Source: a virus. Taken from it: a DNA stretch of 20,530 nucleotides. Location: IMG/VR virus record IMGVR_UViG_3300048597_000643, positions 1 to 20,530 of that record; one strand, given 5' to 3'. Every line of letters starts with the position of its first letter. The first letter of the stretch is position 1. The position numbers and the translations under genes are program-made. Below, piece after piece: positions 1,167-20,084 of this stretch. The notes beneath the pieces were generated by a model that was not told the origin of the DNA, ran no database searches, and saw nothing but the letters and a program-made list of their open reading frames with translations.

Positions 1167-1273
1167 AGGCCGCGCGCGAAACCAAGCCGGAGCATGGCCG
1201 AACTGCGCACAAGGCTCTACTTCCGTATTCCATCAATCTGGGTTGATGTCAGCGTCTACCAAAGAGAATCGTC

Positions 1274-1310
1274 AAAACAAAAAAGGGCCGCTCATTCAAG
1301 AGCGGCCCTA
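1274..1310 (-). terminator. Rho-independent terminator of the ompA-like gene
   Basis: A perfect 10-bp inverted repeat (AGGGCCGCTC at 1284-1293 and GAGCGGCCCT at 1300-1309, 6-nt loop) is followed on the minus strand by TTTTTTGTTTTG. It lies 27 bp past the ompA-like stop codon. The geometry and T-tract are those of an intrinsic terminator working on the minus strand. Confidence 0.92.
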
Positions 1311-1336
1311 ATTGTAATATCAGATTTCGAACGTTG

Positions 1337-2506: not shown

Positions 2507-2645
2507 GGCATTCCCCTTATCAAGCAAACGAAGTTGGTCAAACTCATTGGCCATCTAGCGCACGCGGCGTAAGGGAAGCAAGCGTTGAATCGCTTATGTT
2601 GTTGTTTATGGGCAACACAACCGAGTGTTCTGCAAGGTCGTGCCC

Positions 2646-3146: not shown

Positions 3147-3172
3147 CGTTTGTCTCCAGCCAATAAGGGTGC

Positions 3173-5410: not shown

Positions 5411-5413
5411 GGC

Positions 5414-5863
5414 TCAAATTGCTCCCAAAAGTCGCCACGCGCCGACCCAGACCCAGTCTGGATCAACCGGCCCCTCCACCACCTGTCCCAGGCCCGCGTG
5501 CGCGTGCACCATCCCGCGCGGCGTCAGCACCCCAAGGTGCAACCGCCCCGCCGCCGGCGCCAGAACTGCCACGTCACCCGGCCCGGCCGCATCGACCCGC
5601 AGCCGCGCGCACCCATTGGCAACAAACACCGCTTCCATAAGCGCTGCATTGTCCCCCGCCAGGTCATAGGCCGGGGTTCGGTCCAGACGAATGCCCGCGC
5701 CCCGCGCCGCGATCAGCACCACGCCCACGCAATCGAGCCCGAGTCCGGCAACCCGTCCCTGTGGCCGGAACCGCGTTCCCACACAGCCCCTGGCTGCGCA
5801 GACAATTGCCGGCCAGTGCCGCAACGGCGTCTCAAGCACCGGATCAAGCGCGGCCGCCTTCAC
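5414..5863 (-). CDS. NlpC/P60 peptidase, gp14-like tail protein
   Basis: This 149-residue protein belongs to the NlpC/P60 cysteine peptidases (TIGR02219-type phage members). These cleave peptidoglycan peptides to help the tail tip pass the cell wall. The catalytic Cys is Cys45 in LGLDCVGVV and the His is His109 in RLHLGVL; a further polar His lies in VHAHAG (120-122). The start is GTG at 5863, overlapping the preceding stop by 4 nt (GTGA); no in-frame ATG is available at the right place, so translation is probably coupled. Position between the DUF2163 hub and the baseplate protein matches RcGTA gp13-gp14-gp15 and phage lambda L-K. Confidence 0.93.
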   Translation of the reverse strand: MKAAALDPVLETPLRHWPAIVCAARGCVGTRFRPQGRVAGLGLDCVGVVLIAARGAGIRLDRTPAYDLAGDNAALMEAVFVANGCARLRVDAAGPGDVAVLAPAAGRLHLGVLTPRGMVHAHAGLGQVVEGPVDPDWVWVGAWRLLGAI

Positions 5864-6699
5864 AGCCCGGCAATCCGCATCAGCAGGTCGCCGCCCGGCA
5901 CATGTGGCTCGCCCCGAAAGTTGGCGCCATTTTCAAAGCGCGTCACACAGGTCGAAAAGCGCTTGTCACACCCTTCGAGCAGTCTCACCCGTGTCCCGGC
6001 CTCTAGAAGCAGCGGCTCATCGAGAACAAGCCAGCCCTCTTCCGCCGCGATCACCCGTCGCTCAACGCCTGCCTGCGGTCCATTCAAAACGCGCAACCGA
6101 CCCTCGGCAAAGTCATCCAGCGTCGCCGTCGCCAGCGATACAGAAAGCTGCGGCCCATCACTTGCAACTACCGCCGTGAGATGATCACGACCCCGCATCG
6201 ACACCCGACAACGCCTGTCACCCAATGCCGCCCGACACTCAGGCGAATAGCTTTCCACCGCAGTCGCCTCGAGCATTGCTGTCGGCCCCAGCAGGGTCGC
6301 AACAAAGCCCGCGTCGGGCCCGTCTCCCGCCTCCACCGCCCCCAATCGGCCCCAGGCCAGCCGATGCCGCCCCGCATCGGGAGCCTGCCAATCAACCAGA
6401 AACACCTCGACCGCCGCGCCGTCATATCGCCCCTCGAGCAGATCGCGCGTCGTGATGGCGTCCGCTGAAAGCGCGCCCGCCACTTCCATCGTGTCCACCT
6501 CAAGGCCGTCGCTCGTCACCACCGCAGACGGCGACATGCCCGGTGCATGCTCGTACCGCATCCCCTTCACCCGCAGCGGCCGGTCATGGCTGGTAAACCC
6601 CAGCGCTACCCCATCCCGCCGCACGATCCGCCAGCACAGAACCAGCGTCGTCAGCGCTCCCGTCAAGCGCGCACCCAGAGCCGTGTCAGGGCCAGCCAT
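5860..6699 (-). CDS. DUF2163 / BR0599-family tail hub protein, gp13-like
   Basis: This 279-residue protein has an N-terminal DUF2163 domain and a C-terminal BR0599 domain, the arrangement of RcGTA gp13, the tail hub related to lambda gpL. Four cysteines lie in two pairs: Cys155 and Cys164 (ECRAALGDRRC) and Cys244 and Cys251 (GCDKRFSTC), followed by FENGANFRGEPHVPG, a hallmark of the family. In lambda gpL and its relatives such cysteines hold an iron-sulfur cluster; that this protein does so is inferred. The ATG at 6699 has GGGAGG 8 nt upstream and begins 3 nt after the previous stop. It overlaps the peptidase gene by 4 nt. Confidence 0.93.
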   Translation of the reverse strand: MAGPDTALGARLTGALTTLVLCWRIVRRDGVALGFTSHDRPLRVKGMRYEHAPGMSPSAVVTSDGLEVDTMEVAGALSADAITTRDLLEGRYDGAAVEVFLVDWQAPDAGRHRLAWGRLGAVEAGDGPDAGFVATLLGPTAMLEATAVESYSPECRAALGDRRCRVSMRGRDHLTAVVASDGPQLSVSLATATLDDFAEGRLRVLNGPQAGVERRVIAAEEGWLVLDEPLLLEAGTRVRLLEGCDKRFSTCVTRFENGANFRGEPHVPGGDLLMRIAGL

Positions 6700-6702
6700 C
6701 GC

Positions 6703-9057
6703 CTAGGCCTCCCGCACTTCAACCAGCGGAACCGAAGGCAGTTCGCCCGCCCGCCAGCCGGCAATTGACACATCGATCCGGTCGACGGCAAATCGCACCG
6801 GCACATCAAAGCGAAACCCCGCGCTCACCGTCACCCCTGGCGGCGGCGGCACGTCAAAATCGACAAACCCGCCGTCTCCAAGCACCCAGCCGTCCACCAC
6901 TGGCACAGCGTCCAGCGCCACAACCACCGTATCCGCAACCGGCCGACTTATCCGGCGGACCTGCCCCACTTCCTCGCCGTAGCGCTTGGTCAGCGCAAAG
7001 CGCGTCTGCCCACCGTCTCCACTCCCCAGCGCCTGATCGGTCGGCGAAACCGGCTGCCCCTGCAGGGCCGAACTATTGTCGAGCGGGTCGTTGAACCGAA
7101 ACCCATAGGCCTGCCCACGCCGGGCGCGAAAAAACGAAATCAGCTGGGAAAGATCAGCCTCCGAGCGCACCCCGAGCCCCGCATCATAATATTGCCGCGC
7201 ATCGCTCCACTGGCTGTTGCGTTGCTCATGCCCCGAGGCAGTCACCACCACTTGCGTTGAAAACTCCGGCCCGCCCGCAGCCCCAAAGCCCAACTGCAAG
7301 GGAAACAGCACATCATGAAACGCCATCGCCGCCTCCTCATCATCACCGTCACCAATCGAAAAAGCCGTAAAGCCGTCGCGCGCCACCTGCGGCCAAGCCC
7401 AGATGAAGGTCTCTGCCACGCCGCGTCGCTGCGCCGCTGCGGCTGCATCGGCAATTGCCGTCCAGTCCGCCTCCGCTGTCGCCGCCTCCAGCACAAAGCC
7501 CGACAGATAATGCTGCGCCGATAGAGGATAGCCTAGCCGCTCCGTCACTACCTCACGCGCGCGTCGCTGGCCCGCAAAGTCGCCACCTGTCACAAACTCA
7601 TAGTCCTCCAGCTGCAACACGTCATAAGCCGGCGACTCCCAGGCCTGGGGCATATTTGCCCGGATCAGGTCAGGCGCTTCCGTGTCCAGCACCTGCGGCG
7701 CATAAAACAAGAGCAGCGTCTCCGTCCCCGCCGCCACCGCCAGCGCCGCATCGCGCAGCGCGAGCGTTGCCCGTCCCAGCAAGCCTCCACACCAGTCGAG
7801 ATAGTCCCGCTGCTCTGCCGTCGACACCTGCCGCACGTCGAAAATCGGCGGTGCCGACTGCTCGGTCTCGGCCAGATACAGCGCCACCGTCGCCGCATCA
7901 TAGAGGCAGGGCCGCTTGTCCGGCCCCACCCACCACCAGGGCTCGCCAATCTGAAAGCGCGGCGCCGCGCCAGCCGCCACGCTCAGCTCCACAAACACCG
8001 CCGCCACGTTCTGCAGCCAAGCCATCGCCGCTGGTTCCGCCGGAGAAAGCAACGCCGAGGGGGGAACCCAGCCCGTTAGCCCCCGCGCCCCATTGGCGTC
8101 ACGCTGCGCCCATGGAGCCGGACAATTCTGGTCAAGCAACTCGAATGACAAGGACAAGATCGGCGAAAACGCCAGCCCCACAGCCCGCGCCAGAAAATCC
8201 GCATGCCACGCCAGCGCCGGCCCACAGACCGTCCCCGTTCCCGCTCCCGCCGCCAGATAGGCTTCCGCCACGCCGTCCCACCGCAGCGTCGGAAAATGGC
8301 TCATGCCGAGATAATGGACAAGCGACCCCCGATAGCCGAGCGCCAATATCCCCTCAAGAAGCCGCTCGGGCGTCTGATTGTAGCTGTCATCATATCCCGA
8401 TGCGATGTGCATCCCATGCGGCGGCACAAACGCATCACCGGCCTCGATCATCGACCCCGGACCATCGCAAGCGATGTCGCTCAACGTCATCCGCGCCGTC
8501 ACCGCCTCCACAAGCGGCGCATCTGTCCCATCATAGCCGCTCGCAACCAGCGACACGAACATCCGGTCGATGTCCCCCGGCCACACCCGGTCGGCCTCGC
8601 CCGGCAAAACAAACCCGCCGTCAAGCGCATCGAAATCAAGGTTCACCCGCGCGTCGCTTGGCGATCCGTCGGCATAATTCCACAGCCGCACATACCAGGC
8701 GCGGGCCATGCCGGCGGCATCGCGCCCCTCGATCGTCAGCACCGGGCCATTGATGCCATCCAGCAAAACCACATCGCCGCTGATCTGCACCCGGAACGAA
8801 AGCTGAACCCCCCGATAGTCGCGCGCTGTATCCAGCGCCAACAGCGGATGGCTCCACCGGTCCTGCGATTCCCAGATCAACCCGGCCAGATCGGCCCGCC
8901 GCAAAAACTCCGCATCCACCACCAGCGCATCGGCCCCGACGCTCGTCACCGCCGCCATCATCGGCCGCGGAAAATCGACCGTCCAATAGCGCGGGTCAAA
9001 GCGCTTCACCCAGCGCCGCCGCTGGCCGTCCCCGGCCTTTGCCAACCAATGCCGCAT
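6703..9057 (-). CDS. Large tail protein: N-terminal sheath-like and TIM-barrel-like region fused to DUF2460 distal tail domain (gp12-like)
   Basis: This protein has 784 residues. The last 207 (from Met578) are a complete DUF2460 / TIGR02217 domain, the distal tail protein of RcGTA (gp12), with FHDVLFPLQLGFGAAGGPE and the SFFRARRGQAYGFRFNDP motif. The first roughly 570 residues have a beta-rich start (FDPRYWTVDFPRPMMAAV) and then a region starting near PPHGMHIASGYDDSYNQTPE that looks like a TIM barrel, with a GEPWWW motif containing a possible catalytic-type Glu. The whole resembles non-contractile tail-sheath proteins, but this is from memory of the family, not a search. The ATG at 9057 (TGATG overlap with the tape-measure stop, GGAG 5 nt upstream) is preferred to GTG at 9060. 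An internal ribosome binding site precedes Met578. Confidence 0.85.
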   Translation of the reverse strand: MRHWLAKAGDGQRRRWVKRFDPRYWTVDFPRPMMAAVTSVGADALVVDAEFLRRADLAGLIWESQDRWSHPLLALDTARDYRGVQLSFRVQISGDVVLLDGINGPVLTIEGRDAAGMARAWYVRLWNYADGSPSDARVNLDFDALDGGFVLPGEADRVWPGDIDRMFVSLVASGYDGTDAPLVEAVTARMTLSDIACDGPGSMIEAGDAFVPPHGMHIASGYDDSYNQTPERLLEGILALGYRGSLVHYLGMSHFPTLRWDGVAEAYLAAGAGTGTVCGPALAWHADFLARAVGLAFSPILSLSFELLDQNCPAPWAQRDANGARGLTGWVPPSALLSPAEPAAMAWLQNVAAVFVELSVAAGAAPRFQIGEPWWWVGPDKRPCLYDAATVALYLAETEQSAPPIFDVRQVSTAEQRDYLDWCGGLLGRATLALRDAALAVAAGTETLLLFYAPQVLDTEAPDLIRANMPQAWESPAYDVLQLEDYEFVTGGDFAGQRRAREVVTERLGYPLSAQHYLSGFVLEAATAEADWTAIADAAAAAQRRGVAETFIWAWPQVARDGFTAFSIGDGDDEEAAMAFHDVLFPLQLGFGAAGGPEFSTQVVVTASGHEQRNSQWSDARQYYDAGLGVRSEADLSQLISFFRARRGQAYGFRFNDPLDNSSALQGQPVSPTDQALGSGDGGQTRFALTKRYGEEVGQVRRISRPVADTVVVALDAVPVVDGWVLGDGGFVDFDVPPPPGVTVSAGFRFDVPVRFAVDRIDVSIAGWRAGELPSVPLVEVREA
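7324..7337 (-). promoter_or_regulatory. Internal ribosome binding site and ATG for a stand-alone DUF2460 protein
   Basis: Inside the large tail gene the minus strand reads AGGAGG (7337-7332), CGGCG, ATG (7326-7324). This is a consensus Shine-Dalgarno with 5-nt spacing in front of Met578, exactly where independent DUF2460 proteins of other GTAs begin. It would give a 207-residue product ending at 6703. The sequence is seen directly; use of the start is inferred. Confidence 0.6.
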
Positions 9058-9641
9058 CACCGCTCCGCCTGCATCAAGGCACGGCGAACCGCGCGCGCCA
9101 CTTGTGTTCCGGTCTGTGCCATCATCGCCGCATTCGCCTCCCGCGGTGCCGCCACATTCACCGTCACATTCACCGCCCCGCGCGGCGCGGCTGTCCCCGC
9201 CTCCACGCGCCCGGCGGCCGTCGGCACAAACAGCTCCGGCCCGCGCTCTCCCACGCGGTAGGCCCGCCCCGCGCTCACCGGTCCGCCTGTCGCTCGCCCC
9301 GGCGCTCCGCCCACCAGCCCGGATATCGCTCCGCCCAGCGCCCCCAGAACGCCGCCGCCACCCCCGCCGCCAAACAGCCCGGAAATGTCGTTCCGCACAG
9401 CGCCTGCCGCAATGTCCGCCAGCGTCCGCAGTGCTACCCGCCGCAAATCCTCAAAGCCCAACCGGCCGCTCACCGCTGCCCGAGAAAGCGCTCGCTCGAT
9501 GCCGCCCCCGGCGCGCTCCGCCCCTTGCGCCAGCGGCCCTTCCAGTTCGCGCCGCATGTCGCTGAGCCCGGCCATGAATCCCGACGTGTCCGCCCGCACC
9601 CGCACCACCAACGTGTCCAGATCGCCTGTTTCAACATCCAT
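9057..9641 (-). CDS. Very short tail tape measure protein, gp11-like
   Basis: This 194-residue protein fits RcGTA gp11. An amphipathic alpha-helical N-terminus (residues 1-80, DTSGFMAGLSDMRRELEGPL) leads to a Gly-rich hydrophobic segment (89-114) and the C-terminal signature ATGGPVSAGRAYRVGERGPE, LFVPTAAG seen in many tape measures. It sets tail length during assembly and may enter the target membrane. It is much shorter than typical siphophage tape measures but in keeping with the short tails of GTAs. The ATG at 9641 overlaps the preceding gene by 11 nt and has GGAGG 9 nt upstream. Confidence 0.88.
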   Translation of the reverse strand: MDVETGDLDTLVVRVRADTSGFMAGLSDMRRELEGPLAQGAERAGGGIERALSRAAVSGRLGFEDLRRVALRTLADIAAGAVRNDISGLFGGGGGGGVLGALGGAISGLVGGAPGRATGGPVSAGRAYRVGERGPELFVPTAAGRVEAGTAAPRGAVNVTVNVAAPREANAAMMAQTGTQVARAVRRALMQAER

Positions 9642-9828: not shown

Positions 9829-10136
9829 CGACCCGCCAAAATCTGCCCCAGCAACACCCGGAGCGCCGGCGTCACCGACGAAAGCCCGGCCCGCACCAGC
9901 GCCTCGCCAAAGCCGTCCCGGTCCATCCCGGCGGGCGGCGTCCCAAGGCAGTGCCACATCAGCGTAGCCATTTCCGCCAGGGTCAGTCCGCCGCCCGCCG
10001 CCCGCTCCACCAGCTGAAACAGCGGCCCCAGTTCCGCCTCAGCCGCCACCAGCGCCTGAAAGCTCGGCCGCAGCACCAGCGTCTCGCCGGCCAGCAACAG
10101 CGCCGCCTCGCCGCGCTCCGCATTGGCTGGCCTCAC
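9825..10136 (-). CDS. GTA gp10-like protein (gene transfer agent family tail protein)
   Basis: This 103-residue protein matches the GTA-gp10 family: RGEAALLLAGETLVLRPSFQ at the start, then a helical region with MWHCLGTPPAGMDRDGFGEA. The family is a tail-tube-associated or chaperone-type protein found between the major tail protein and the small chaperone. The only suitable start is GTG at 10136, which overlaps the major tail protein stop by 4 nt (GTGA) and has no clear ribosome binding site, so it is probably translated by coupling. Confidence 0.85.
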   Translation of the reverse strand: MRPANAERGEAALLLAGETLVLRPSFQALVAAEAELGPLFQLVERAAGGGLTLAEMATLMWHCLGTPPAGMDRDGFGEALVRAGLSSVTPALRVLLGQILAGR

Positions 10137-10540
10137 GCCGTCACCACCGGGCCGGAGCTTTCCAGCGCCATCGTGTAGGTGCGTTCACCATTGAAATCCC
10201 CGGCATAGTCCAGCCGCGTGATCAAAAACCGACCCGTCACGGTCTCACCGCTCTCAAACGCCACCTGATAATCATCGATCGTGCCCGAAAGTGCATTGGC
10301 CTTCACCCGCGCCTCCGCGCCCGAGCCGGTAAACACCCCCGACCCACTCAGCGACACAGACCGCACGCCTGCCCCCGACAACAGCTCGCGCCATCCGCCA
10401 GAGCCCTGGTTCGTCACCACCACCGTCTCGGTATTCACCGTCATCTGCGTCGTCCGCAGCCCGGCCACGGTCGTAAACACCGTCGGCACCGCGCCATTGC
10501 CCACCTTCAGCAAAAAGGCACTGCCCTTTTCCATCGCCAT
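10133..10540 (-). CDS. Phage major tail (tube) protein, gp9-like
   Basis: This 135-residue protein belongs to the TP901-1/TIGR02126-type major tail proteins. It begins EKGSAFLLKVGNG, has VAGLRTTQMTVNTETVVVTN, and ends with the beta strands YAGDFNGERTYTMALESSG that are standard for the tail-tube fold. Its hexamers stack into the tail tube. ATG at 10540 follows AAGGA with 7-nt spacing, 22 bp after the tail-terminator gene. A second Met two codons in is a less likely start. Confidence 0.93.
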   Translation of the reverse strand: MAMEKGSAFLLKVGNGAVPTVFTTVAGLRTTQMTVNTETVVVTNQGSGGWRELLSGAGVRSVSLSGSGVFTGSGAEARVKANALSGTIDDYQVAFESGETVTGRFLITRLDYAGDFNGERTYTMALESSGPVVTA

Positions 10541-10562
10541 ATCCGCATCCTTTCAAAAACGC

Positions 10563-10964
10563 TCAGCCGCCCAACACTCGGCTTCGCAGCCGAAATTCCA
10601 CCAGCCCCTCGGTCCAATCGCCGCTGTCCCGGATCACCAGCGCCCGCACCAGCCGGCTCGAAACCAGCACATGCCCGTCAACCGCCCCGGTCATCCCGGC
10701 AAGTGCGGCCTCCACTTCACCCATCAGCGGCTTCAACCGAGCACTCCCCGTGGCGGACCCCGCCCGCTCGTCCCATACCCGCACCTGCACCCGGTGCTCA
10801 TGCCCGGTTTCGGTCTTGGTGCTCCAATCCGTCATCAGGTCCGGCCCGACGGTCAGATAGGGCGCAGCCGCGTCCACCGGCGGGCCGTCATAGACGCCGC
10901 TCACCCCCGCCACGCCCGCCAGCGCCGCCCGCATCAACCGCTGCATCGCCAGGCTCGCGCTCAT
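10563..10964 (-). CDS. DUF3168 tail terminator protein, gp8-like
   Basis: This 133-residue protein is a DUF3168 member, the family of tail terminator or tail-completion proteins that cap the tail tube (RcGTA gp8). Typical features are VSGVYDGPPVDAAAPYLTVG near the start and the central HEHRVQVRVWDERAGSA. The ATG at 10964 overlaps the preceding stop by 4 nt and has GGAGGGG 7 nt upstream. Confidence 0.92.
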   Translation of the reverse strand: MSASLAMQRLMRAALAGVAGVSGVYDGPPVDAAAPYLTVGPDLMTDWSTKTETGHEHRVQVRVWDERAGSATGSARLKPLMGEVEAALAGMTGAVDGHVLVSSRLVRALVIRDSGDWTEGLVEFRLRSRVLGG

Positions 10965-11230
10965 TTCACATCCCCTCCGCCCATTGTCTCCGACGCAAGC
11001 CAAGCGGCCAGCATCGCCAGCCGCGGATCGGGTGCCCGGTCCCGGCGTCCACGCGCCCGGCTCGCCAGCCCCGCCGCCCGCAGCCACAGCCGCTCCCCAT
11101 CCCGCCCCACCTCGATCTCGGGAAACTCCGCCACAACCGCGCCCTCCAACCTCGCCAGCCGCCGCGCCACCGCTGCTGCGCCGCGCCGTTCTGCCGCCCC
11201 GGCCAGCGCGTCCAAAACCCGGCTCGCCAT
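10961..11230 (-). CDS. Small hypothetical protein between gp7- and gp8-like genes
   Basis: I do not recognise this 89-residue protein with confidence. It is basic, with an Ala/Arg-rich helical first half (LAGAAERRGAAAVARRLARL), a short beta-type segment (EIEVGRDGERLWLRAAGL) and an acidic end. The spot between the head-tail adaptor and the tail terminator often holds an HK97 gp10-like component in other phages, but I see no decisive motif. The gene is coupled on both sides: TGATG with the gp7-like gene and ATGA with the gp8-like gene. The ATG at 11230 has GGAG 9 nt upstream. RcGTA has no gene at this place as far as I recall. Confidence 0.72.
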   Translation of the reverse strand: MASRVLDALAGAAERRGAAAVARRLARLEGAVVAEFPEIEVGRDGERLWLRAAGLASRARGRRDRAPDPRLAMLAAWLASETMGGGDVK

Positions 11231-11571
11231 CACCCGGCGCTCCGGCAGCGCAGCACAACCGTCTGATCCCGAACGGGATCACGCTCCACCGCCAGCACCG
11301 TCAGCCGCTCGCCGCGCCACCACAGCCGCGATGTCAGCCCCACATCAACCGGCCCGCGCAGCGTCACCCGCAGCCGCGCCACTTGCCGCCGCGCCTCGCC
11401 GCCAGGCTGCAGGTCAGCCGCCGTCAACCGCTCCGCCTCCACCGCCGCTGCCACGGTCGCACGCACCGCCCAATGCCCGGCCTCCAGCCCGGCCGCGTCG
11501 CGCGCCTCCACCCATTCCTCGATCGTCACCCGCTCGCGCAGCCGGCCCGCCAGTTCGCGCTCCTCACCCAT
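11230..11571 (-). CDS. Head-tail adaptor / stopper protein, gp7-like
   Basis: This 113-residue protein fits the phage head-tail adaptor family (SPP1 gp16-like; RcGTA gp7). It begins GRLRERVTIEEWVEARDAAG, matching the family's opening LRxRVxIE...RD, and ends with a strand-rich region (SRLWWRGERLTVLAVERDP) typical of the adaptor fold, which joins the connector to the tail. The ATG at 11571 has AAGGA 7 nt upstream. Longer in-frame extensions overlap the upstream gene heavily and are rejected. It ends in TGATG with the next gene. Confidence 0.88.
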   Translation of the reverse strand: MGEERELAGRLRERVTIEEWVEARDAAGLEAGHWAVRATVAAAVEAERLTAADLQPGGEARRQVARLRVTLRGPVDVGLTSRLWWRGERLTVLAVERDPVRDQTVVLRCRSAG

Positions 11572-11600
11572 CCGCCCATCCTTTTCAAAACCGGCGTTTT

Positions 11601-12116
11601 TCAGCCCAGCCGCATCCGTCGCCATGGTCGCCACATCGCCGCCACCGCCGCTGGCGGCGGTCCCGCGTCGGCCGCATCGCGGTGGCTGAACAGATGCACC
11701 ACCAGCCGCACCAGCCCTTGCCTCAGCGGCTCGGGTATGCCGTTCCAATCGGTCGCCAGCCCCGCCTGATAGCGCACCACAGGTGCCCCCAGGCCCGGCG
11801 TCACCACGCGCACCCAGCCCTGCCCGGTGAGGTCGATATCCACGGCAAAGTCGCTCGCGGGCAGCAATGTTTCTCCGTCGCGCACCGATTCCACCGCCAC
11901 CACGGGGAGCGCCGTCAGACGCTGCCAGCCCCCATCGGCGCTCAGGCGCTGCTCGGTCTCGCGGACCATCAGCCATTGGCCGATAAACGCCTCGCAAAGC
12001 CCCGCAGCCGTGCGGATAAGCCCGGCCAGCACCGCGTCCTCATCGTCGCGCTCCAGCCGCAGATAGGCCTTGCACTCCGCCAGGCTGATCGCCAGCCCGC
12101 CCTGGTCGATCGCCAT
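11601..12116 (-). CDS. Head-tail connector protein, gp6-like
   Basis: This 171-residue protein resembles phage gp6-like / phiE125 gp8-family connectors, which bind the portal and form the neck ring. The first part is helical (ISLAECKAYLRLERDDEDAV, LIRTAAGLCEAFIGQ), the middle beta-rich (LPVVAVESV, DIDLTGQGWVRV), and the end helical (PEPLRQGLVRLVVHLFSHRD), the order expected for the family. The ATG at 12116 shares one base with the previous stop (TGATG) and has GGAGGA 6 nt upstream; GTG at 12119 is a weaker alternative. Confidence 0.9.
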   Translation of the reverse strand: MAIDQGGLAISLAECKAYLRLERDDEDAVLAGLIRTAAGLCEAFIGQWLMVRETEQRLSADGGWQRLTALPVVAVESVRDGETLLPASDFAVDIDLTGQGWVRVVTPGLGAPVVRYQAGLATDWNGIPEPLRQGLVRLVVHLFSHRDAADAGPPPAAVAAMWRPWRRMRLG

Positions 12117-12397
12117 CACCGTTCCTCCACCCGCACCACAAGCATCCGCTCGTCCTGCCCGCCGTCCGAGAATGTCACCGCATTGGTTATCCGATAGATA
12201 TGTCCGGCCCGGCCGCCACTCAGCGTCACCAGCGTCCGTCCGCCTTCGATCCGGCCCGGACCAACCAGAACGCCGGCCACATCCTCCGGGCTCACGGACC
12301 AGTTCGATTCAACAATGCTCTGGTCCCCCAGATATCCCGCCGCCCAGTCGATCGCATAATCAAGCGATGCGCCCGGATCCTTCACAAAGACGCTCAT
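12116..12397 (-). CDS. Fibre-tail adaptor-like small structural protein
   Basis: This 93-residue protein starts MSVFVKDPGASLDYAIDWAA and ends in an Ig-like beta region (TLVTLSGGRAGHIYRITNAV, ERMLVVRVEER). The pattern, a VKDPGA-type start, WSVSPEDV and a strand-rich repetitive-sequence-friendly end, matches what is called phage fibre-tail adaptor protein in many phages, where it occurs near fibre or spike genes. It is the last of the three-gene cassette between capsid and gp6-like genes, and TGATG couples it to the connector gene. The ATG at 12397 has AGGAGGAGGG upstream, a very strong site, so a longer reading back to 12460 is rejected. Confidence 0.72.
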   Translation of the reverse strand: MSVFVKDPGASLDYAIDWAAGYLGDQSIVESNWSVSPEDVAGVLVGPGRIEGGRTLVTLSGGRAGHIYRITNAVTFSDGGQDERMLVVRVEER

Positions 12398-12424
12398 CAG
12401 ACCCTCCTCCTGTCGCCCGCTTCC

Positions 12425-12453
12425 CGGCCGGCACCGCGCCGCGATGCCGGCCG
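12425..12453 (-). other. GC-rich hairpin in the gap before the fibre-adaptor gene
   Basis: A perfect 9-bp inverted repeat (CGGCCGGCA at 12425-12433, TGCCGGCCG at 12445-12453 on the plus strand, 11-nt loop) lies in a 101-bp gap between the decoration-like and adaptor-like genes. No T-tract follows on the minus strand, so it is not a standard terminator. It could protect or process mRNA, or limit translation. Confidence 0.5.
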
Positions 12454-12498
12454 TCTTCATCGCTCGTCCGCATTGTCGTCAGCGATGGCGAAAGCTCA

Positions 12499-12867
12499 TC
12501 AAAGAGGGTCGCCGATTTCCACATTCCAGCTGGCAATGTTCACCGTGCCGCCGCTCGGAAGCAGCTGTGCCGGGCAGGTCGTCACATAGAGCAGCCGCTC
12601 CGCCACGCCGTCGAGCAAGGCAATATGGTTCGCCGTTCCGGTCGCGCTCACCAACACGCCCAGCTTCGCAGCCACCGTCACCTTGCGCCCGGACACGTCG
12701 CCATTGCCGATGCTGAAATCCACCGGTGCCATCGCCGCCTCGGCCAGGGCGCCGCTGTTCGCGGCCGCATAGGTTGCCGGTTGTGCTGCCAAAGCCACCA
12801 TCCGGTTCGCTGTCCGCACCACCTCAAGGCTGCCATCCAGAACAAAATCGCTTGCAAATTTCGCCAT
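12499..12867 (-). CDS. Small phage structural protein, decoration-like (MAKFASDFVLD family)
   Basis: This 122-residue protein starts MAKFASDFVLDGSLEVVRTA and continues with NRMVALAAQPATYAAANSGA and VTVAAKLGVLVSATGTANHI, a beta-rich pattern I recall as conserved among phage proteins with the same opening, usually near capsid or fibre genes. Its function is unknown; capsid decoration or fibre attachment are the obvious possibilities. Two ATGs occur at 12870 and 12867; the second has GGGAG at 7-nt spacing and gives the usual N-terminus. The gene lies 27 bp after the beta-helix gene and probably belongs with it. Confidence 0.75.
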   Translation of the reverse strand: MAKFASDFVLDGSLEVVRTANRMVALAAQPATYAAANSGALAEAAMAPVDFSIGNGDVSGRKVTVAAKLGVLVSATGTANHIALLDGVAERLLYVTTCPAQLLPSGGTVNIASWNVEIGDPL

Positions 12868-12894
12868 CATCGCTCTCCCATCATGCCAAAAAAA

Positions 12895-15594
12895 TCACCC
12901 CAGCCGCGCAAAGGCCGTTCGCTCGTCCGGCCCTATGATCAGCCGCCGCGCTCCCACTCCCGCCACCGGCACACTCAACAGGGCAACGTCGCCGCCCAGG
13001 CCATGCACCGCACGGTCCGGCACCAGCACGGCGCCCCCCGGTTCCAGCGTCGGCGAGGACGTCAGCACCACATGGCCGGCCGCCAAAGGCGTCAGCGCCA
13101 CACTCAGCAACAGGGCTGATGTCGAAGCCCTGCTCGCAAGCATCCCGCCCGCCGGCGCCAGGCTTGCCACCGCCATCAGCGCCGGCCCATCGGCAAAATG
13201 TCCATGGCGCGCATTCATCGGCATCAGCCCCGCGCCGGTCACCACCCCGGGTGCCGTAGAGTGCACAGCATGTCCGGTCGGATCCGGCACCAAAGCCAGC
13301 GCCGCCACCGCCTGCTCATAAGCCCCAGCAGCGCCGGACGTCATGCGCGCCACGCCCAGCAAATCCCGGTCGGTGTTGCTGTTCGTCACCCGCCCCAGCA
13401 CCGGAGAGCCAGAGGCCGGACGATAATCACCGCCGCCCGTATTCGCGCCAAAGCCCGAACGGTCGTCTGTCACCAACGGGTCAAACGGCGCCGCCAGATT
13501 TTGCGATGAGCGCAGCCCGTAGAAACTTCGCGGGAAGGCAGACAGGGGAACAACCGCGCGCCCGCTGTCAAAATTGCCTTCGTGCATCACCCCATTGTCA
13601 TCAGACCACCCGCCGATCAGATGCGGGCGATAGCCAAAGGTGCCGTCCAGAAACTTGTCGTGCTTGGTCGGGTTGCTGTCCCACAAATTATTGGCGATGC
13701 GGTTGCAGAACAGGTCGCTGTTGATCGAAGAACTGCCGCTGTTCGGGTCATTATAAATGGCGTTCGCCCGCTCACCGACAACGGTGTTGTTTTCAATGAT
13801 GTTGTAATGAACCGAAACAGCGGCCCCTTCTCCAATCGCAAACATCGGTTGCGAGCCGGAGCGGTTGAACATCTCGAACACATTGCCGACAATGGCCATG
13901 CGGCGGACGCTCGGATAGGTCGTGCCTGCGGTGGCCGTCGGCACCAGGGTCAGCAACAACGCCCGGCTGCGATGCGCCCGTATGTCGTTGTAGGCAATGA
14001 TGTTGTCCTCACAGCCCTCCAAATCCGTCTCACGCGTGTAGTTGCCCACCGCGACGAGTGTGTTGGAGGTCAGGTCATCGTCGCGCCCGATCCACTTGCT
14101 CGTCAAAATGCAGGCGGCCCGCGCCGTGCGGCTGAACTCGCACTTGCGGATCAAGCCGAACAGCATCGTGGAGCTGCCCATGCCGACGCCAGAGCGCCAC
14201 CAGCGCGTTCGCGCCGCGTCCACGGAAGCCTGCCCCAAAATCGGGGCCGCTGCGATAATCCCGCCGCTGCTGCCCTCAAAGCCCGCGCGGCCCCGCACAA
14301 TCACATTGTCCAGCGTCACAAAAACAAAGTTCTGCGAGATCGCCGTGCTTGGCCCGATTTCAATCGTGCAGCTTTCAAACTGCCCCAAAGTGGCAAAAAA
14401 GGTCGCGTTCGGCGAGACGGTTTGCACAATGCAGTTTTCACGCGGGTTCGCGTTATCGGGGTCGCCGATAACTCTGACCGGAATTTCAATGGTATTGAGC
14501 GGGAAGGTGATCGCCGCGCCCGTCAATTCGTTGACGCCCGATGCCAAAACAATCGTCGCGCCGTCGCAGGTGCGCGTGCCTCCGCCCCGCCCATTGGCAG
14601 CCGGAAGGGTCTTGTTCGCCAACTGGAGCGCCTGAAACGCCGTCCGCACCGTGCGAGGCTTGGACGCAGCCGCGACCGCTCTTGCCCCTGCCAGCGTCGT
14701 TTGCACCATCGCCGAAGATGCGGTTGTCGTGCCGTTGACGCTGTCGATCACAATCCATTGATTGCGGTAACGATTGCCCGTCGGGTCAAAGCCGACAACG
14801 TAAGGCCGCTCCGCCCCCACACCCCGGCCCGACAAGATGGTCGCCATCGAGCGCGTGCCAGCCGGGTCCGTTGTCCGCATGGCCCCGAGCCACGGATACA
14901 CCTCCGCGTCACAGCGCAGAAGCCCCGCCGTCAGCGCGGTCGCAGTCGTCGGGTCGACCTCCACCGTATAGCAGCGCAGATTGTCGCCATAGTCATTGTC
15001 GGTGCCCAGCGCCGTCGCCCACACCGTCTTCGTGTTGGTTCCGTCCGTCACCGTGAACTTGACGCCCGCCACCGGCTCGAAGCCAAGCGGATGATGCGAC
15101 ATGACCACCAGCGAAAGACGGAACGCGCCCTGAACCACCTGAAGACGCAGTCGCGCCCAACGCATGATCGGCACAGGGGCCACCAGCGTTGAATTATTGG
15201 TGACGCTGATCCCGGTCGCCGCATCCTCGCCCGTCCGCCACCCGGCCAGCACATCAAGCAGCAGGCTCGTGTCGGTCGCATAGACATGGTTCGAAAGGGC
15301 GATACGCACGCGCCGTTGCCCGCCGCCAATGTCCTCCTCGTCAAGCACGTCAACGGTGGGGTTCAGCGGATCGACCGGCAGCCGCAGCGCCCTTGTGGCC
15401 GGAATGGACCGCGCCAGCGTGCCCGATACCGCCTCGCCGCCCGACTTCACAAACCCGGGATGCGACGAGCGCAGCACCACACGCGGCGAGGCGTCCGGGG
15501 CTAGCGCATAATCGCCAAAGCCCCCGGCACCGCCGCTCACCACCAGCTGCAAAACCCAGCCGTTGCTTTCCACTGCTGCCGAAACAATCGCCAT
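12895..15594 (-). CDS. Right-handed parallel beta-helix spike/fibre-like protein
   Basis: This 899-residue protein has three parts. Residues 1-320 are beta-rich with Trp/Thr/Gly strands and no recognised enzyme motif. Residues 320-760 form a beta-helix region with spaced N-N/N-x-I turns (NIIAYNDIRAHRS, NIIENNTVVGE, NRIANNLWDSN), ending with DYRPASGSPVLGRV and GAAGAYEQ, a closing motif common in secreted beta-helix and polysaccharide-lyase-like proteins. Residues 766-899 are six degenerate repeats. There is no signal peptide, as expected for a particle protein. It begins at 15594 (AAAAGG about 7-8 nt upstream), 114 bp after the capsid gene. A head or tail spike that binds or cuts surface polysaccharide is inferred; no active site is identified. 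The central part is lower in GC than its ends. Confidence 0.82.
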   Translation of the reverse strand: MAIVSAAVESNGWVLQLVVSGGAGGFGDYALAPDASPRVVLRSSHPGFVKSGGEAVSGTLARSIPATRALRLPVDPLNPTVDVLDEEDIGGGQRRVRIALSNHVYATDTSLLLDVLAGWRTGEDAATGISVTNNSTLVAPVPIMRWARLRLQVVQGAFRLSLVVMSHHPLGFEPVAGVKFTVTDGTNTKTVWATALGTDNDYGDNLRCYTVEVDPTTATALTAGLLRCDAEVYPWLGAMRTTDPAGTRSMATILSGRGVGAERPYVVGFDPTGNRYRNQWIVIDSVNGTTTASSAMVQTTLAGARAVAAASKPRTVRTAFQALQLANKTLPAANGRGGGTRTCDGATIVLASGVNELTGAAITFPLNTIEIPVRVIGDPDNANPRENCIVQTVSPNATFFATLGQFESCTIEIGPSTAISQNFVFVTLDNVIVRGRAGFEGSSGGIIAAAPILGQASVDAARTRWWRSGVGMGSSTMLFGLIRKCEFSRTARAACILTSKWIGRDDDLTSNTLVAVGNYTRETDLEGCEDNIIAYNDIRAHRSRALLLTLVPTATAGTTYPSVRRMAIVGNVFEMFNRSGSQPMFAIGEGAAVSVHYNIIENNTVVGERANAIYNDPNSGSSSINSDLFCNRIANNLWDSNPTKHDKFLDGTFGYRPHLIGGWSDDNGVMHEGNFDSGRAVVPLSAFPRSFYGLRSSQNLAAPFDPLVTDDRSGFGANTGGGDYRPASGSPVLGRVTNSNTDRDLLGVARMTSGAAGAYEQAVAALALVPDPTGHAVHSTAPGVVTGAGLMPMNARHGHFADGPALMAVASLAPAGGMLASRASTSALLLSVALTPLAAGHVVLTSSPTLEPGGAVLVPDRAVHGLGGDVALLSVPVAGVGARRLIIGPDERTAFARLG
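12898..13299 (-). repeat. Six degenerate 21-24-residue repeats at the C-terminus of the beta-helix protein
   Basis: Residues 766-899 can be cut into six units with the pattern L-x-P-x-x-x-x-H-x-x-x-x-x-x-(A/P)-L: for example LALVPDPTGHAVHSTAPG, AGLMPMNARHGHFADGPA, GAVLVPDRAVHGLGGDVA. Similar H-spaced repeats occur in phage fibre proteins. The later units are more diverged and the last ends in PDERTAFARLG. Confidence 0.6.
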
Positions 15595-15616
15595 GGGTCA
15601 GCCTTTTCAGATAATT

Positions 15617-15663
15617 GGGTCCCGCCCCGACGGCCACCAAAGCCGCAGGTCAGGACGGGACCC
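15617..15663 (-). other. Hairpin between capsid and beta-helix genes
   Basis: In the 114-bp gap, GGGTCCCG (15617-15624) pairs perfectly with CGGGACCC (15656-15663), and CGGC/GCCG inside the loop can form a second short stem. No T-tract follows on the minus strand. It could stabilise the capsid mRNA 3' end, allow partial termination, or mark an insertion junction. No gene is seen in this gap. Confidence 0.5.
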
Positions 15664-15708
15664 CTTCACACACCCACCTTCAGGGGGGCTCAAATGCTCA
15701 AAAGTCGA

Positions 15709-16818
15709 TCAGACGCTGAAGCGCATCAGCTTGATCGCCCGGCTGTCGACCACAGCCCCGCCAATCCGACGCGTTGCATAAAAATGCACAAACGGCTTGC
15801 GGGTATAAGGATCGCGCAACACCAGAGTCTCCCGGCGCTGGGCAATCAGATAGCCGGCCCGGAAGTTGCCAAACGCGATCGACAGGCTGTCGGCAGCCAC
15901 ATCGGGCATCGCATCGGCCTCCACCACCGGATAGCCCAGCAGCGTCGCCGGCTGCTCTGCGCTCAGCGAAGGCTGCCAGATAAAGCCCCCGCTGCTGTCC
16001 TTCATCTTGCGAATGCGCGCCAGCGTCGAGGCGTTCATCACCCAGCTCGCCCCTTGGCGATATGGCGCCGCCAGCGCCTGCACCAGGTCGATCAGCCGGT
16101 CCTGCGGATTGCTGGCCGCAAAAGCGCCCGCCGCCCCCGAGGTCACAAACTGCAGCGTCCCAAAGGCCCGCACCGCATCCCCCGTCGCCGCATTGGGAGC
16201 CGCCAAAAACCCGCGCGGCTTGTTCACCCCGTCTCCGGACACAAAGGCCACACCCTCGGCGCGCGCAAACTCGCGGCCAATCTCCTCGCCCAGCCACGCT
16301 TCCACATCAAACATCGCGTCATCGAGCATCGCCTGGCTCGCCGCCGGATTGGCATAAAGCTCGCCCATCGGCGGTGCGATCTCGGCAAAGTCCGGCGTCT
16401 CCGTCTCAGGACGCACCGCCGTCTCGCTCACCCAGCCCGAAACAACGCCCGTCGTGGTAATCAGCTTGCGATAATTGGCCGAGCCGACATCCACGACCTG
16501 CGCAATGGCCCGGATCGGCGATGCCGCGTTCAGCACCCGGTCGATCACGGCGTCGATCTCCACCGGAACGGCCAGCCCGCCCTTGGCCGGCGTGCCGATG
16601 CTGGCGGCCTTCATCTCGGCCCCCGCATCGCCGCCCTTGCGCAGCCAGTCGCCGTCGCCAGCCGATTTCGCGCCCGATAGCGCCGGACGCTCCACAGCAC
16701 GCGCCGAAACCACGCCCGACAAGCGGCTCACCTCGGCCCGCAGCGCCACAACCTCATCATGCGCCTCAACACGATCAAACACCGCTTCCAGCGGTTCAGC
16801 CTTCATCTCATAGTCCAT
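15709..16818 (-). CDS. HK97-family major capsid protein, gp5-like
   Basis: This 369-residue protein builds the head shell. Residues 1-50 are a coiled-coil scaffold (delta) region (EAVFDRVEAHDEVVALRAEV) normally removed by the upstream protease. The rest shows HK97-fold motifs: VEIDAVIDRVLNAASPIRAI, TETPDFAEIAPPMGELYANP, a G-loop and A-domain end (GNFRAGYLIAQRRETLVLRD, FYATRRIGGAVVDSRAIKLM). The ATG at 16818 shares one base with the protease stop (TGATG) and has GAGGAG 8 nt upstream. The length fits the family. Confidence 0.95.
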   Translation of the reverse strand: MDYEMKAEPLEAVFDRVEAHDEVVALRAEVSRLSGVVSARAVERPALSGAKSAGDGDWLRKGGDAGAEMKAASIGTPAKGGLAVPVEIDAVIDRVLNAASPIRAIAQVVDVGSANYRKLITTTGVVSGWVSETAVRPETETPDFAEIAPPMGELYANPAASQAMLDDAMFDVEAWLGEEIGREFARAEGVAFVSGDGVNKPRGFLAAPNAATGDAVRAFGTLQFVTSGAAGAFAASNPQDRLIDLVQALAAPYRQGASWVMNASTLARIRKMKDSSGGFIWQPSLSAEQPATLLGYPVVEADAMPDVAADSLSIAFGNFRAGYLIAQRRETLVLRDPYTRKPFVHFYATRRIGGAVVDSRAIKLMRFSV

Positions 16819-17252
16819 CAGTCCGTCTCCTCTGCCACCATCGAAAGCCCCAAAACCCGAGCGAGTGGCTGCATCGGGAAGGTCACCAAAGAAACCTCGA
16901 CAAGTTCAACCCGCTCCAGCGCCCGCACGCCGCGCAGCCGGTCCCGGCGGCTTGCCTTCACCCGGTATCCAAACGACAGGCCATCGATTGCGCCTGCCTT
17001 CAGCAACCGCACCACCTGCTCGCCGCGCCCGCTCGCCACCACCCGCGCCACCACGCGCAAGCCGCGCGCATCCTCCTTGGCACTCTCCACAAACCCCACA
17101 GGTTCGCGCACATCATGCTGCCAAAGCAGCGGTACCCGTCCCGGAAGCACCTCGGACAAAGCTCCCGAAAAAGCTCCCGGCATCACCACATCGCCGCCCG
17201 TGTCCGCCACGCCGAACACACTCGCATAGCCCGCCAGCCGCAGATCCTGCAT
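16818..17252 (-). CDS. HK97-type prohead protease (peptidase S78), gp4-like
   Basis: This 144-residue serine protease matures the capsid by cutting the scaffold region of the major capsid protein. His46 lies in LLWQHDVREPVG and Ser93 in IDGLSFGYRV, the two conserved catalytic motifs; an acidic partner is likely in ELVEVSLVTFP. It is compact, as in GTAs. The ATG at 17252 has GGGAGGA 8 nt upstream and begins 3 nt after the previous gene. Confidence 0.94.
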   Translation of the reverse strand: MQDLRLAGYASVFGVADTGGDVVMPGAFSGALSEVLPGRVPLLWQHDVREPVGFVESAKEDARGLRVVARVVASGRGEQVVRLLKAGAIDGLSFGYRVKASRRDRLRGVRALERVELVEVSLVTFPMQPLARVLGLSMVAEETD

Positions 17253-17255
17253 CGC

Positions 17256-17561
17256 TCAAATCCTCCCGCGTTCGATCAGCCCCAGCTTGAACGCCAGCCC
17301 CAGCAGCAGCAGCGCCGCCATCATCCGCACCACCCAGCTCACCGCCGCATTCACCGCCGATTTCTTCGCATCCCGCCACCCCTGGATCAGCTGGCGAAGC
17401 TGCACGATGTCCGATCCCGCCGTCGCATCGCGCAGCCCCACCATCTCCAGCGCGCGGCTGGCGCCTACCTCGCTGGCTTCCTCCACAAGCGCGCGCAGCG
17501 TCACTCGCGCCGCACCCTCGGCCTCGGCCTGCGCCACCAGCCCCTCCAGCATCGCCGTCAT
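17256..17561 (-). CDS. Small membrane-anchored protein, DUF6127-like
   Basis: This 101-residue protein has a charged helical N-terminal two thirds (LVAQAEAEGAARVTLRALVE; DIVQLRQLIQGWRDAKKSAV) and one C-terminal transmembrane helix (about 71-93, WVVRMMAALLLLGLAFKLGL). It resembles DUF6127, a family I recall from sphingomonads beside GTA-like portal genes; that name is from memory. Its function is unknown. A membrane protein inside a head-gene block could tether assembly at the inner membrane or be a release factor, but nothing shows this. It overlaps the portal stop by 4 nt (ATGA). Confidence 0.75.
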   Translation of the reverse strand: MTAMLEGLVAQAEAEGAARVTLRALVEEASEVGASRALEMVGLRDATAGSDIVQLRQLIQGWRDAKKSAVNAAVSWVVRMMAALLLLGLAFKLGLIERGRI

Positions 17562-18727
17562 CGCGCCGCCTCAAGCCCAAGCAGCGCCCGCTTCTCCGCA
17601 TCGGTCAAAAACGCCGCGCCCGAAACCTGCGACCACAGCCGCTCCCGGTCCGCGGAAAGCGCCGGCACCGCATCCAGATCGACCCGCACCTCAAGCCCCG
17701 GCCACCAGTGTCGCAAATGCGCCGACAGCGCCTGCAAGATTCGCCCTGTCAGCGGCAACAGCGTCAGCCGCCACAGCGCCACATTCGCTTCCTTATAGTT
17801 GGAATAGGTCGCATCCCCCGCCAGCCCCAGCAGCAGCGGCGGCACCCCGAACGCCAGCGCAATCTCGCGCGCCGCCGCATCCTTGGCCTTGGCAAAGTCC
17901 ATTTCCGCCGGCGTCAGGCTCATCGCCTGCCAGCTCAAGCCGCCCTCCAGAAGCATCGGCCGCCCGGCATTGCCAGCGCCCGAAAAACCCGCCTCCATCT
18001 CCGCCTTCAGCCGCTCAAACTGCTCAGCCGAAAGCGCCGACCCATCGCCAGGCTGGTACACCACCGCCCCCGAAGGCCGCGCCGCATTGTCGAGCAGCGC
18101 CCGGTTCCACTGCGAGGCGGCATTGTGCATCGTCACCGCCGCCTCCGCCGCCCCCAGGCACCCCAGGCCATAATGGTCATCGAGCGGATGAAAGCCCCGA
18201 ATATGCAAAAGCCCGGCATCCTCGCCCCGGTTCTCCGGCGCATAGCGCGTCACCGTATCACCAGCCCGGTACAAATAGGCCTCAGGCCATCCTTTGGCAT
18301 CAAGCGCCACCGTCACCCGCTCGGGCCGCAGCGCATAAAGGGCAGCCGGCAGCCCGTCCGCTCCGCACGCCACCTCCACATAGGCATTGCCGTGCAGCAA
18401 AAGCTGTGCGGTCAGCGTCTCCATCAGCCCCGGCCCCGAAGCCCCGCAGCCACAGCTCTGCAGCAGCGCCAGCGCCGGATGCCCAGCCGGATTCGAAACC
18501 AGCGGCGCCCCGCCCGCCCCTTCGCTCAACAGCCGCACCGCCCGCGCCGCCACCGGATTCTTCAGATAAGACGCACGCACCTGTGCCTCATAGCTTCTCG
18601 GTGCGCCGTCTCCGCGCCCCATGTCGGCCCCGGACCAGGGGTGCGCCCAGCTCGGCGCATACCCCGCCATCTTCGCCGCCACGCCGTCCGTCGCGCGTGC
18701 CTTGGTCCGCCAGAATGCCAAATTCAT
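17558..18727 (-). CDS. HK97-family phage portal protein, gp3-like
   Basis: This 389-residue protein forms the dodecameric portal through which DNA enters the head. Diagnostic motifs are YLKNPVAARAVRLLSEG, LLLHGNAYVEV, DHYGLGCLGAAEAAV, and PPLLLGLAGDATYSNYKEAN. It ends with LTDAEKRALLGLEA, standard for the family. The ATG at 18727 has GGAGGGG just upstream; a reading back to 18799 would extend into the terminase gene and adds no family-like sequence. It is followed by a 4-nt overlap with the membrane protein gene. Confidence 0.94.
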   Translation of the reverse strand: MNLAFWRTKARATDGVAAKMAGYAPSWAHPWSGADMGRGDGAPRSYEAQVRASYLKNPVAARAVRLLSEGAGGAPLVSNPAGHPALALLQSCGCGASGPGLMETLTAQLLLHGNAYVEVACGADGLPAALYALRPERVTVALDAKGWPEAYLYRAGDTVTRYAPENRGEDAGLLHIRGFHPLDDHYGLGCLGAAEAAVTMHNAASQWNRALLDNAARPSGAVVYQPGDGSALSAEQFERLKAEMEAGFSGAGNAGRPMLLEGGLSWQAMSLTPAEMDFAKAKDAAAREIALAFGVPPLLLGLAGDATYSNYKEANVALWRLTLLPLTGRILQALSAHLRHWWPGLEVRVDLDAVPALSADRERLWSQVSGAAFLTDAEKRALLGLEAAR

Positions 18728-18773
18728 CGGCCCCTCCATCTTGTCAGCCCGCCGCCACGGCAGGCAAGAATTT

Positions 18774-20084
18774 TCAGATCCCGCGCACCGATGGCGCACC
18801 CGCCCTTGGTCCCAGCATCAACGCGCTCAGCGCCCACACCAGCGCATCGGCACGGTCGGGAGACTGTCCCGGCCCGGCATAAACCCCATTCGCCAGCAGC
18901 CCGCACAGCTGGTCCTCCAGCGCCGGAAACGAACCATAATGGAACACCTTGCCCTGCCCATACAGGCTCGCCACAGGCTCGGCGCGCGCCACCTTGCCGC
19001 GCGCCGCACGCACCGCTGTCAGCGGCAGATGGGCATCCACCGCCCGCAATTGCGCCACCACCATGTCGCCACCATTGTTCACCTCGGCAATCACCCTGTC
19101 GGCGCGCCACCGGTCCGCCGCAGACACCACGGCGCGCGCCCAGCTCTCCGGCCGCGCGCCCTGCACCGAGGCATCTTCCAAAACCCAGCCCCGCCCATTT
19201 TCGTCGAGGCCCGTCACCACAATCCCGCACACGCCGTCCACCGCCCCCGCGGGCGGGTCGACGCCGACCACAACCCGCGCCAGCGGTGGCCAGGCCGTGC
19301 GCTTCTGCTGCTCCAGAAGCGCCCGCGTCCACAACGCCCCCTCGATCGTCTCCACAAGCTCGCCGTCCAACTCCTGCCGCCCCACAAGGCTGCCGCCAAA
19401 GCGCGCCTCCAGCGCATCGAGAAAAGTCGCCGGCAAATTCTTGCCGTTGTCGCGCATCCGCCCCCGCGTCACCACCACACCCGGCTCGATCAACAGCCGC
19501 TTCAGCCAGTCGAGCGGCAACGGCGTTGTCGTCAAAAGCAATTGCGGACGCACCCCCAGCCGCGTCGACAGGCGCAAATTGGTCAGGGCCTCCTCGGCGC
19601 GCGGCCAATGCGCAAATTCGTCCCCCCAACCATAATCAAACTGCCCGCCGCGCAGCCCATCGGGGTCTCCGCCCGAATAGAGTCGCGCTGTCGATCCGTT
19701 CGCCCAGGCCAATTGATGAAGGCTCGAAAAATACCGCAACCCGGCATCAGGCGGCGCCAATGCCAATAGCCCCGATTCCCCTTCCACCATCACCGATCTG
19801 GCACTTTCCAGGCTCGCCCCCACCAGCGCAAAACGGCGCGGCGCGCCCTTCGCCTGCGCCAGAACCCATTCCGCTCCGGCGCGCGTCTTGCCAAAGCCCC
19901 GGCCCGCCAAAATTGCCCAGATCGACCAATCGCCCGGCGGCGGAAGTTGCGCGCGTCGCAGCCGTCCCGCCCCCGTCAAAGCCTTTATCACCACTTCAAC
20001 ACCAAAACGGTTCACCAGCGCCAGCCGGTCGTGTTGCGGCAGCAAGGCCCAAAGCTCCGCCACCGACGCTTCTTCACACGCCAT
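18774..20084 (-). CDS. terL: Terminase large subunit, gp2-like
   Basis: This 436-residue enzyme is the ATP-driven DNA-packaging motor and headful nuclease. In the ATPase half, the Walker A motif is AGRGFGKT (60-67), Walker B ends in Asp155-Glu156 (YGWGDE), and the coupling motif is TTTP (185-188). In the nuclease half, Asp276 (VVGVD), Glu334 (AEVNNGG) and Asp410/Asp413 (SPDRADAL) are in the expected order. All key residues are present, so it should be active. The ATG at 20084 is preceded by GGGGGG; a TTG seven codons earlier is rejected. A 59-bp gap separates it from the small terminase. The sequence is GTA/HK97-type. Confidence 0.95.
   Translation of the reverse strand: MACEEASVAELWALLPQHDRLALVNRFGVEVVIKALTGAGRLRRAQLPPPGDWSIWAILAGRGFGKTRAGAEWVLAQAKGAPRRFALVGASLESARSVMVEGESGLLALAPPDAGLRYFSSLHQLAWANGSTARLYSGGDPDGLRGGQFDYGWGDEFAHWPRAEEALTNLRLSTRLGVRPQLLLTTTPLPLDWLKRLLIEPGVVVTRGRMRDNGKNLPATFLDALEARFGGSLVGRQELDGELVETIEGALWTRALLEQQKRTAWPPLARVVVGVDPPAGAVDGVCGIVVTGLDENGRGWVLEDASVQGARPESWARAVVSAADRWRADRVIAEVNNGGDMVVAQLRAVDAHLPLTAVRAARGKVARAEPVASLYGQGKVFHYGSFPALEDQLCGLLANGVYAGPGQSPDRADALVWALSALMLGPRAGAPSVRGI

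Follow-up and report, generated by a model that had tools for sequence, protein, structure and literature searches.

A probable receptor-binding spike cassette between the capsid and head–tail adaptor genes of a sphingomonad RcGTA-like cluster

Introduction

The window analysed here, IMG/VR virus record IMGVR_UViG_3300048597_000643 (20,530 bases), carries a head–tail gene cluster resembling that of RcGTA, the gene transfer agent (GTA) of Rhodobacter capsulatus. In RcGTA, the genes of the major capsid protein gp5 and the head–tail adaptor gp6 have consecutive locus numbers (Rcc01687 and Rcc01688) and no gene lies between them, whereas in the window they are separated by 3.5 kb containing three same-strand open reading frames (ORFs) of 899, 123 and 114 aa, the third of which is probably 93 aa long. 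The stop of the third gene and the start of gp6 (ATG at 12116) overlap as TGATG (sequence GGTGATGGCG). An earlier sequence-only reading of the window had pointed out the block, its coupling to gp6 and the departure from the RcGTA gene order; ORF coordinates, sequence and locus numbers agree with it. The locus raises the question of what the three proteins do and where on a particle they would sit.

The block is rather likely to be a modular receptor-binding cassette, anchored at the neck and directed at polysaccharide, within a sphingomonad RcGTA-like head–tail cluster. The 899-aa spike would contact cell-surface polysaccharide through its helix, either binding or cutting it; the 123-aa protein would act as a whisker-type linker and the 93-aa fibre–tail adaptor would dock the spike onto the gp6 adaptor ring, with the spikes projecting from the neck, where the head meets the tail. 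Family evidence and the other occupants of the same slot give good support to the receptor-binding role. From two fold or family matches and from gene order we infer the neck position; likewise inferred are assembly into particles, docking on gp6, the oligomeric state, a polysaccharide as the target and any activity as an enzyme.

Identity of the cluster and recurrence of the block

All genes of the cluster are encoded on the minus strand. Its curated family matches comprise portal, protease, capsid, adaptor, distal tail protein, baseplate hub and part of the megatron. The capsid, adaptor, distal tail protein, baseplate hub and C-terminal half of the megatron are homologous to those of RcGTA and occur in order. 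The best PDB match of the capsid protein is the RcGTA major capsid protein, and gp6 matches the RcGTA adaptor with an E-value of 2e-4. The megatron gene, gp15 (3173–5410), aligns with its family over no more than the C-terminal 530 of 1299 profile positions, with a score under the curated cut-off. The nearest genome relatives of the window are Polymorphobacter-like and other Sphingomonadales. A further difference from RcGTA is that the head spikes and the tailspike TspA of the latter are encoded outside its cluster.

The three families of the block recur as full-length ORFs, in the same order, in dozens of independent loci. The trio is therefore not a product of chance, and the same recurrence rules out an assembly artefact.

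Fibre–tail adaptor

The third protein belongs to the family of gp77, the fibre–tail adaptor of podophage GP4, which bears out its earlier description as fibre-adaptor-like. It matches PF23148 with 79.5 bits (cut-off 27) over model positions 1–84 of 84, and the same family is matched by all 40 of its aligned homologues; a profile of 40 homologues finds the GP4 chain 8jou_D (E 6.5e-10), from an entry titled ‘Fiber I and fiber-tail-adaptor of phage GP4’. The gene most likely starts at 12397, giving 93 aa instead of 114: the ATG at this position is preceded by GGAGGAGGGTCTG, relatives mostly use that start and GP4 gp77 is also 93 aa long. In GP4, the fibre–tail adaptor reportedly forms a ring around adaptor I, the head–tail adaptor, and anchors two kinds of fibre. 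GP4 differs from the window cluster, however, in being a short-tailed phage, and its fibres are different proteins.

Linker protein

The 123-aa protein (orf123) is strongly conserved, with 74% mean column identity over 24 sequences, and its AlphaFold model is confident. No sequence match was found in Pfam, PHROG or PDB. Foldseek ranks chains of the Bas63 connector (9mt4, E 7e-4) and the Sf14 neck (9c39, E 8e-4) highest, with a probability of 1.00; the Sf14/Bas63 neck whisker protein shares the fold with E-values of 7e-4 to 3e-3 and TM-scores of 0.56–0.60. Chain a of GP4 8JOU is a weak match (rank 7, E 0.43). The neck of Sf14 bears two whisker sets, made up of gp30 and gp31, which are attached via adapter gp37 (PMC11821841). 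Both Sf14 and Bas63 are contractile-tailed phages, unlike the system considered here. The fold match is a resemblance between a predicted model and solved structures, with homology not proven, and orf123 is termed ‘whisker-like’ rather than a family member because its sequence homology to the FelixO1 counterpart, ORF55, was not detected. The sequence-only reading had called this protein decoration-like, a description that fits less well than neck-whisker-like, given that the matches are neck and connector chains. The listed Foldseek matches contain no RcGTA head spike (Rcc01079 or Rcc01080), with no direct comparison made.

Spike protein

The AlphaFold model of the 899-aa spike consists of a β-rich N-terminus, repeated short strands at residues ~330–760 and a tail of low confidence. 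The repeated strands are predicted to form a β-helix; the earlier designation as a β-helix spike gains some support from the strand pattern of the model and from the sequence, but no solved β-helix protein was matched. No Pfam, PHROG or PDB sequence match was found for the spike, and its profile likewise found none in PDB; a weak NosD match occurs in one of 24 spike homologues. The best PDB structure matches are tandem immunoglobulin (Ig)/FN3-like domains, fitting the N-terminus. Most Foldseek matches of the whole spike are Ig-like proteins, alongside weak ones to viral tail fibres, so the spike is assigned to no enzyme family.

The tail region has a 22-residue period across the spike family (identity at lag 22 of 0.20 vs. 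0.105 for shuffled sequences). The repeat is clearest in several homologues, is variable in length and is weak in the spike of the window itself; it is possibly a stalk or attachment tail. Locus L082 is the extreme case of the variable-length repeat, which precedes a recurring C-terminal motif.

The cassette ORFs are intact in nearly all homologues. The spike genes of L084 and L088 appeared to be broken; direct ORF extension rules this out and shows both to be intact. In L142, a metagenome-assembled genome labelled Rhodobacteraceae, a distant spike homologue (30%) follows the capsid gene and no gp6 is recognisable; this genome may be misbinned.

By its description, the RcGTA tailspike TspA (rcc02623) is similar to the predicted form of the spike of the window: a β-sandwich N-terminus is followed by a β-helix, and the protein is a GTA spike directed against extracellular polysaccharide. 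Biofilm polysaccharide can be degraded by a GTA spike, as TspA demonstrates (PMC13420450). In contrast to the spike of the window, TspA is encoded outside the RcGTA cluster, beside lysS, and is baseplate-bound and detachable. Since TspA is reported to be absent outside Rhodobacterales (PMC13420450), a sphingomonad substitute is plausible.

Slot contents in related clusters

The interval between the capsid and adaptor genes was compared in 137 related loci having both genes. The slot is empty in 49 of them, so the trio is not a standard part of all sphingomonad clusters. The cassette type of the window is present in 17 loci, orf123 with another spike in 3, an S74-type fibre (cluster C1) in 36, the adaptor gene alone in 8 and other contents in 24. 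Isolates that carry the cassette include Polymorphobacter glacialis (locus L087) and Thermaurantiacus tibetensis (L112). Representative slot proteins include S74 endosialidase-chaperone tail fibres, an SASA carbohydrate esterase, a GDSL lipase, a collagen-like fibre and members of PHROG tail fibre/spike families. The block behaves as a spike cassette, as had been proposed. The trio recurs, and other fibre families take the place of the spike in the slot.

On the capsid tree, the six slot states require at least 30 changes (66–80 in shuffles) and the distinction between empty and filled slots requires 15 (shuffles 35–46), while the orf123-bearing type of the window requires a single change (shuffles 14–20). 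The slot has therefore been refilled repeatedly across the group, and the window type has descended together with the capsid gene within a single clade.

Among the 150 genomes of the family, the capsid gene is present in 101, a gp77-like gene in 31 and orf123 in 16. In 28 of the 31 with the gp77-like gene (28/150, about a fifth), it shares the strand of the capsid gene and lies 87–4144 bp downstream of it; orf123 is linked in 15 of its 16 genomes. Further IMG/VR loci have orf123 within 200 bp of a gp77-like gene in 66 of 74 cases, usually with gp6 beyond. In loci L233 and L243 and genomes G148 and G010, orf123 directly follows the capsid gene and the gp77-like gene comes about 2.5–3 kb later; hence, the internal order of the cassette can vary.

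The slot is a widespread and variable cassette hotspot. No published description of the capsid–gp6 slot was found in the literature searched, subscription papers being outside its scope. Extra conserved genes in head–tail clusters and the replacement of g7 in Sphingomonadales have been described; the section consulted makes no mention of this slot (PMC9765227). The suggestion that the arrangement is singular does not hold, as the adaptor occupies the slot in 28 of the 150 genomes, the slot is a hotspot and phage-like contigs share its parts.

Phage relatives of the cassette

Phage-like contigs with distant capsids (25–50% identity) or other structural genes hold parts of the cassette in other orders: gp6, gp77-like, orf123 in L196; capsid, orf123, fibre, gp6 in L228; and capsid, orf123, 394-aa ORF in L226. 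L212 carries the spike N-terminus. The tail of the Gly-rich fibre of L228, encoded between the orf123 homologue and gp6, resembles that of the spike by eye. The presence of these parts in the four contigs indicates that the cassette module is shared with phages, from which it probably came.

Variation within the spike gene

Positions 1–9079 of locus L002 (sample 3300048583) are collinear with 10091–19169 of the window. The two differ at 78 of 9,079 bases. The spike gene, 2,700 bp long, holds 77 of these differences, almost all of them within codons 185–691; the capsid, orf123, gp77-like and gp6 genes are identical. The dN/dS of the spike is about 0.19, a value less in keeping with random decay than with replacement by a working allele that had diverged; together with the intact ORFs of nearly all homologues, it argues that the spike gene is functional. 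The comparison, which involves a single pair of metagenome contigs that could include a chimeric assembly, suggests allele exchange confined to the spike. Even a chimeric assembly would require a second spike allele to exist in nature.

A broader model can be put forward tentatively, at rather less than even odds: a dedicated neck docking slot would exchange whole spike modules (β-helix, S74 fibre, esterase, lipase, collagen fibre), spike alleles would be swapped within a population in an otherwise unchanged cluster, and lineages or capsule types may in this way control their partners in DNA sharing. With the same slot empty or differently filled in relatives, particles may differ in the cells they stick to. 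The choice of recipients by GTAs has so far been studied mainly in R. capsulatus. An exchangeable-spike hotspot in the core cluster would let sphingomonad GTAs change recipients, would allow recipient choice to be tested at a single locus and would tie GTA evolution to the diversity of surface polysaccharides. It also suggests that phage neck parts, such as the fibre adaptor and whisker, are kept in domesticated particles.

Position on the particle and alternative explanations

The neck is the favoured position because orf123 has a neck-protein fold and the third protein belongs to a fibre–tail adaptor family. The sequence-only reading had allowed for attachment to either head or neck; the neck part of it stands, and the head surface appears less likely. 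Several points weigh against a neck-anchored, polysaccharide-directed spike. No solved β-helix protein is among the best PDB matches of the spike, the best being Ig-like folds, and no catalytic residues were identified in it. The Foldseek matches of orf123 are modest, with a TM-score of about 0.6 and about 15% identity. FelixO1 gene lengths suggest that the matched Sf14 chain (K) is the gp31 counterpart, an indirect identification; the orf123 profile has no sequence similarity to FelixO1 ORF55, taken as the gp31 counterpart (hhalign probability 0.8%), and neither the adaptor nor the linker profile is similar in sequence to ORF54 or ORF55. Finally, gp77-family genes of actinophages (Gordonia and Mycobacterium phages) sit among minor-tail genes, so membership in this family alone does not fix the position at the neck.

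The last point is also consistent with a receptor-binding spike located at the tail tip or baseplate, whose genes merely lie near those of the neck. TspA is a baseplate-bound tailspike of β-sandwich and β-helix that is missing outside Rhodobacterales (PMC13420450), and a substitute might fill its place. Such a location is unlikely, however, given that the fold matches of the linker are neck and connector chains, that the gene right after the cassette is that of the gp6 adaptor and not one of the tail tip, and that the trio keeps this position in dozens of loci.

Slightly more doubtful is the view that the cluster is an ordinary prophage and the cassette its usual receptor-binding module, which would be compatible with a neck-anchored cassette. 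IMG/VR lists the record as a virus, and the literature searched contains no report of a GTA particle from a sphingomonad. Nevertheless, gene order and families are RcGTA-like from terminase to megatron, and what adjoins the cluster is a host-type OmpA gene and an insertion sequence (IS) element instead of genes for a phage integrase or phage replication, an observation that is not final in a record that is a fragment.

It is improbable that the proteins decorate the capsid shell in the manner of Rcc01079 and Rcc01080, the head spikes of RcGTA, which are seated on pentamers of the capsid. The cassette genes do lie behind that of the capsid, and capsule binding is an established property of GTA head spikes (PMC7296036), but neither small protein was matched to a head-spike base protein, the linker is similar to neck proteins and the third protein is a member of the fibre–tail adaptor family. 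That the block is phage-derived cargo playing no part in the particle is highly improbable. The cassette parts in phage-like contigs and the absence of any insert from about a third of related clusters might suggest it, but the ORFs are intact, dN/dS is low, the trio is conserved and, in one clade, the cassette has passed down vertically together with the capsid gene.

Features of the locus and neighbouring genes

Table 1. Features of the capsid–gp6 interval of the window; spike conservation was calculated from 22 of 24 aligned sequences, two divergent ones being left out
Feature	Coordinates	Strand	Evidence or remarks
Major capsid protein (gp5), upstream boundary of the slot	15709..16818	-	TIGR01554 E 9e-106; RcGTA Rcc01687 E 4e-86
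114-bp intergenic segment with GC-rich stem-loop right after the capsid gene	15595..15708	-	fold -49.8 kcal/mol
899-aa predicted spike	12895..15594	-	ORF; AlphaFold pLDDT 77.9, pTM 0.80; 23 homologues aligned
Spike residues 1–250, Ig/FN3-like N-terminal part	14845..15594	-	most conserved, 52% mean pairwise identity
Spike residues ~330–760, predicted β-helix	13315..14607	-	33–36% identity; most L002 differences here
Spike residues 764–880, low-confidence tail with 22-residue repeats in homologues, then short C-terminal motif	12955..13305	-	
123-aa neck-whisker-like protein (orf123)	12499..12870	-	AlphaFold pLDDT 95.4; Foldseek 9mt4, 9c39
93-aa fibre–tail adaptor (gp77 family)	12116..12397	-	PF23148 E 2.8e-22; within 114-aa ORF 12116–12460
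gp6 head–tail adaptor	11601..12116	-	TIGR02215 E 5.5e-20; RcGTA adaptor Rcc01688

In every slot type, empty or filled, most loci have a GC-rich hairpin immediately behind the capsid gene, often followed by T residues, which may act as a partial terminator reducing downstream expression. In gp12 (6703–9060), the N-terminal and TIM-barrel domains of a non-contractile tail sheath (PF23844, PF23845) are fused to DUF2460; this long gp12 is common to nearly all related loci. Just beyond the cluster end, IS3-type transposase genes adjoin an OmpA-family gene (1–1166 and 1337–2554). The DUF2793 protein encoded after the megatron (2646–3176) matches tail-fibre PHROGs and is a possible second receptor-binding protein at the tail tip.

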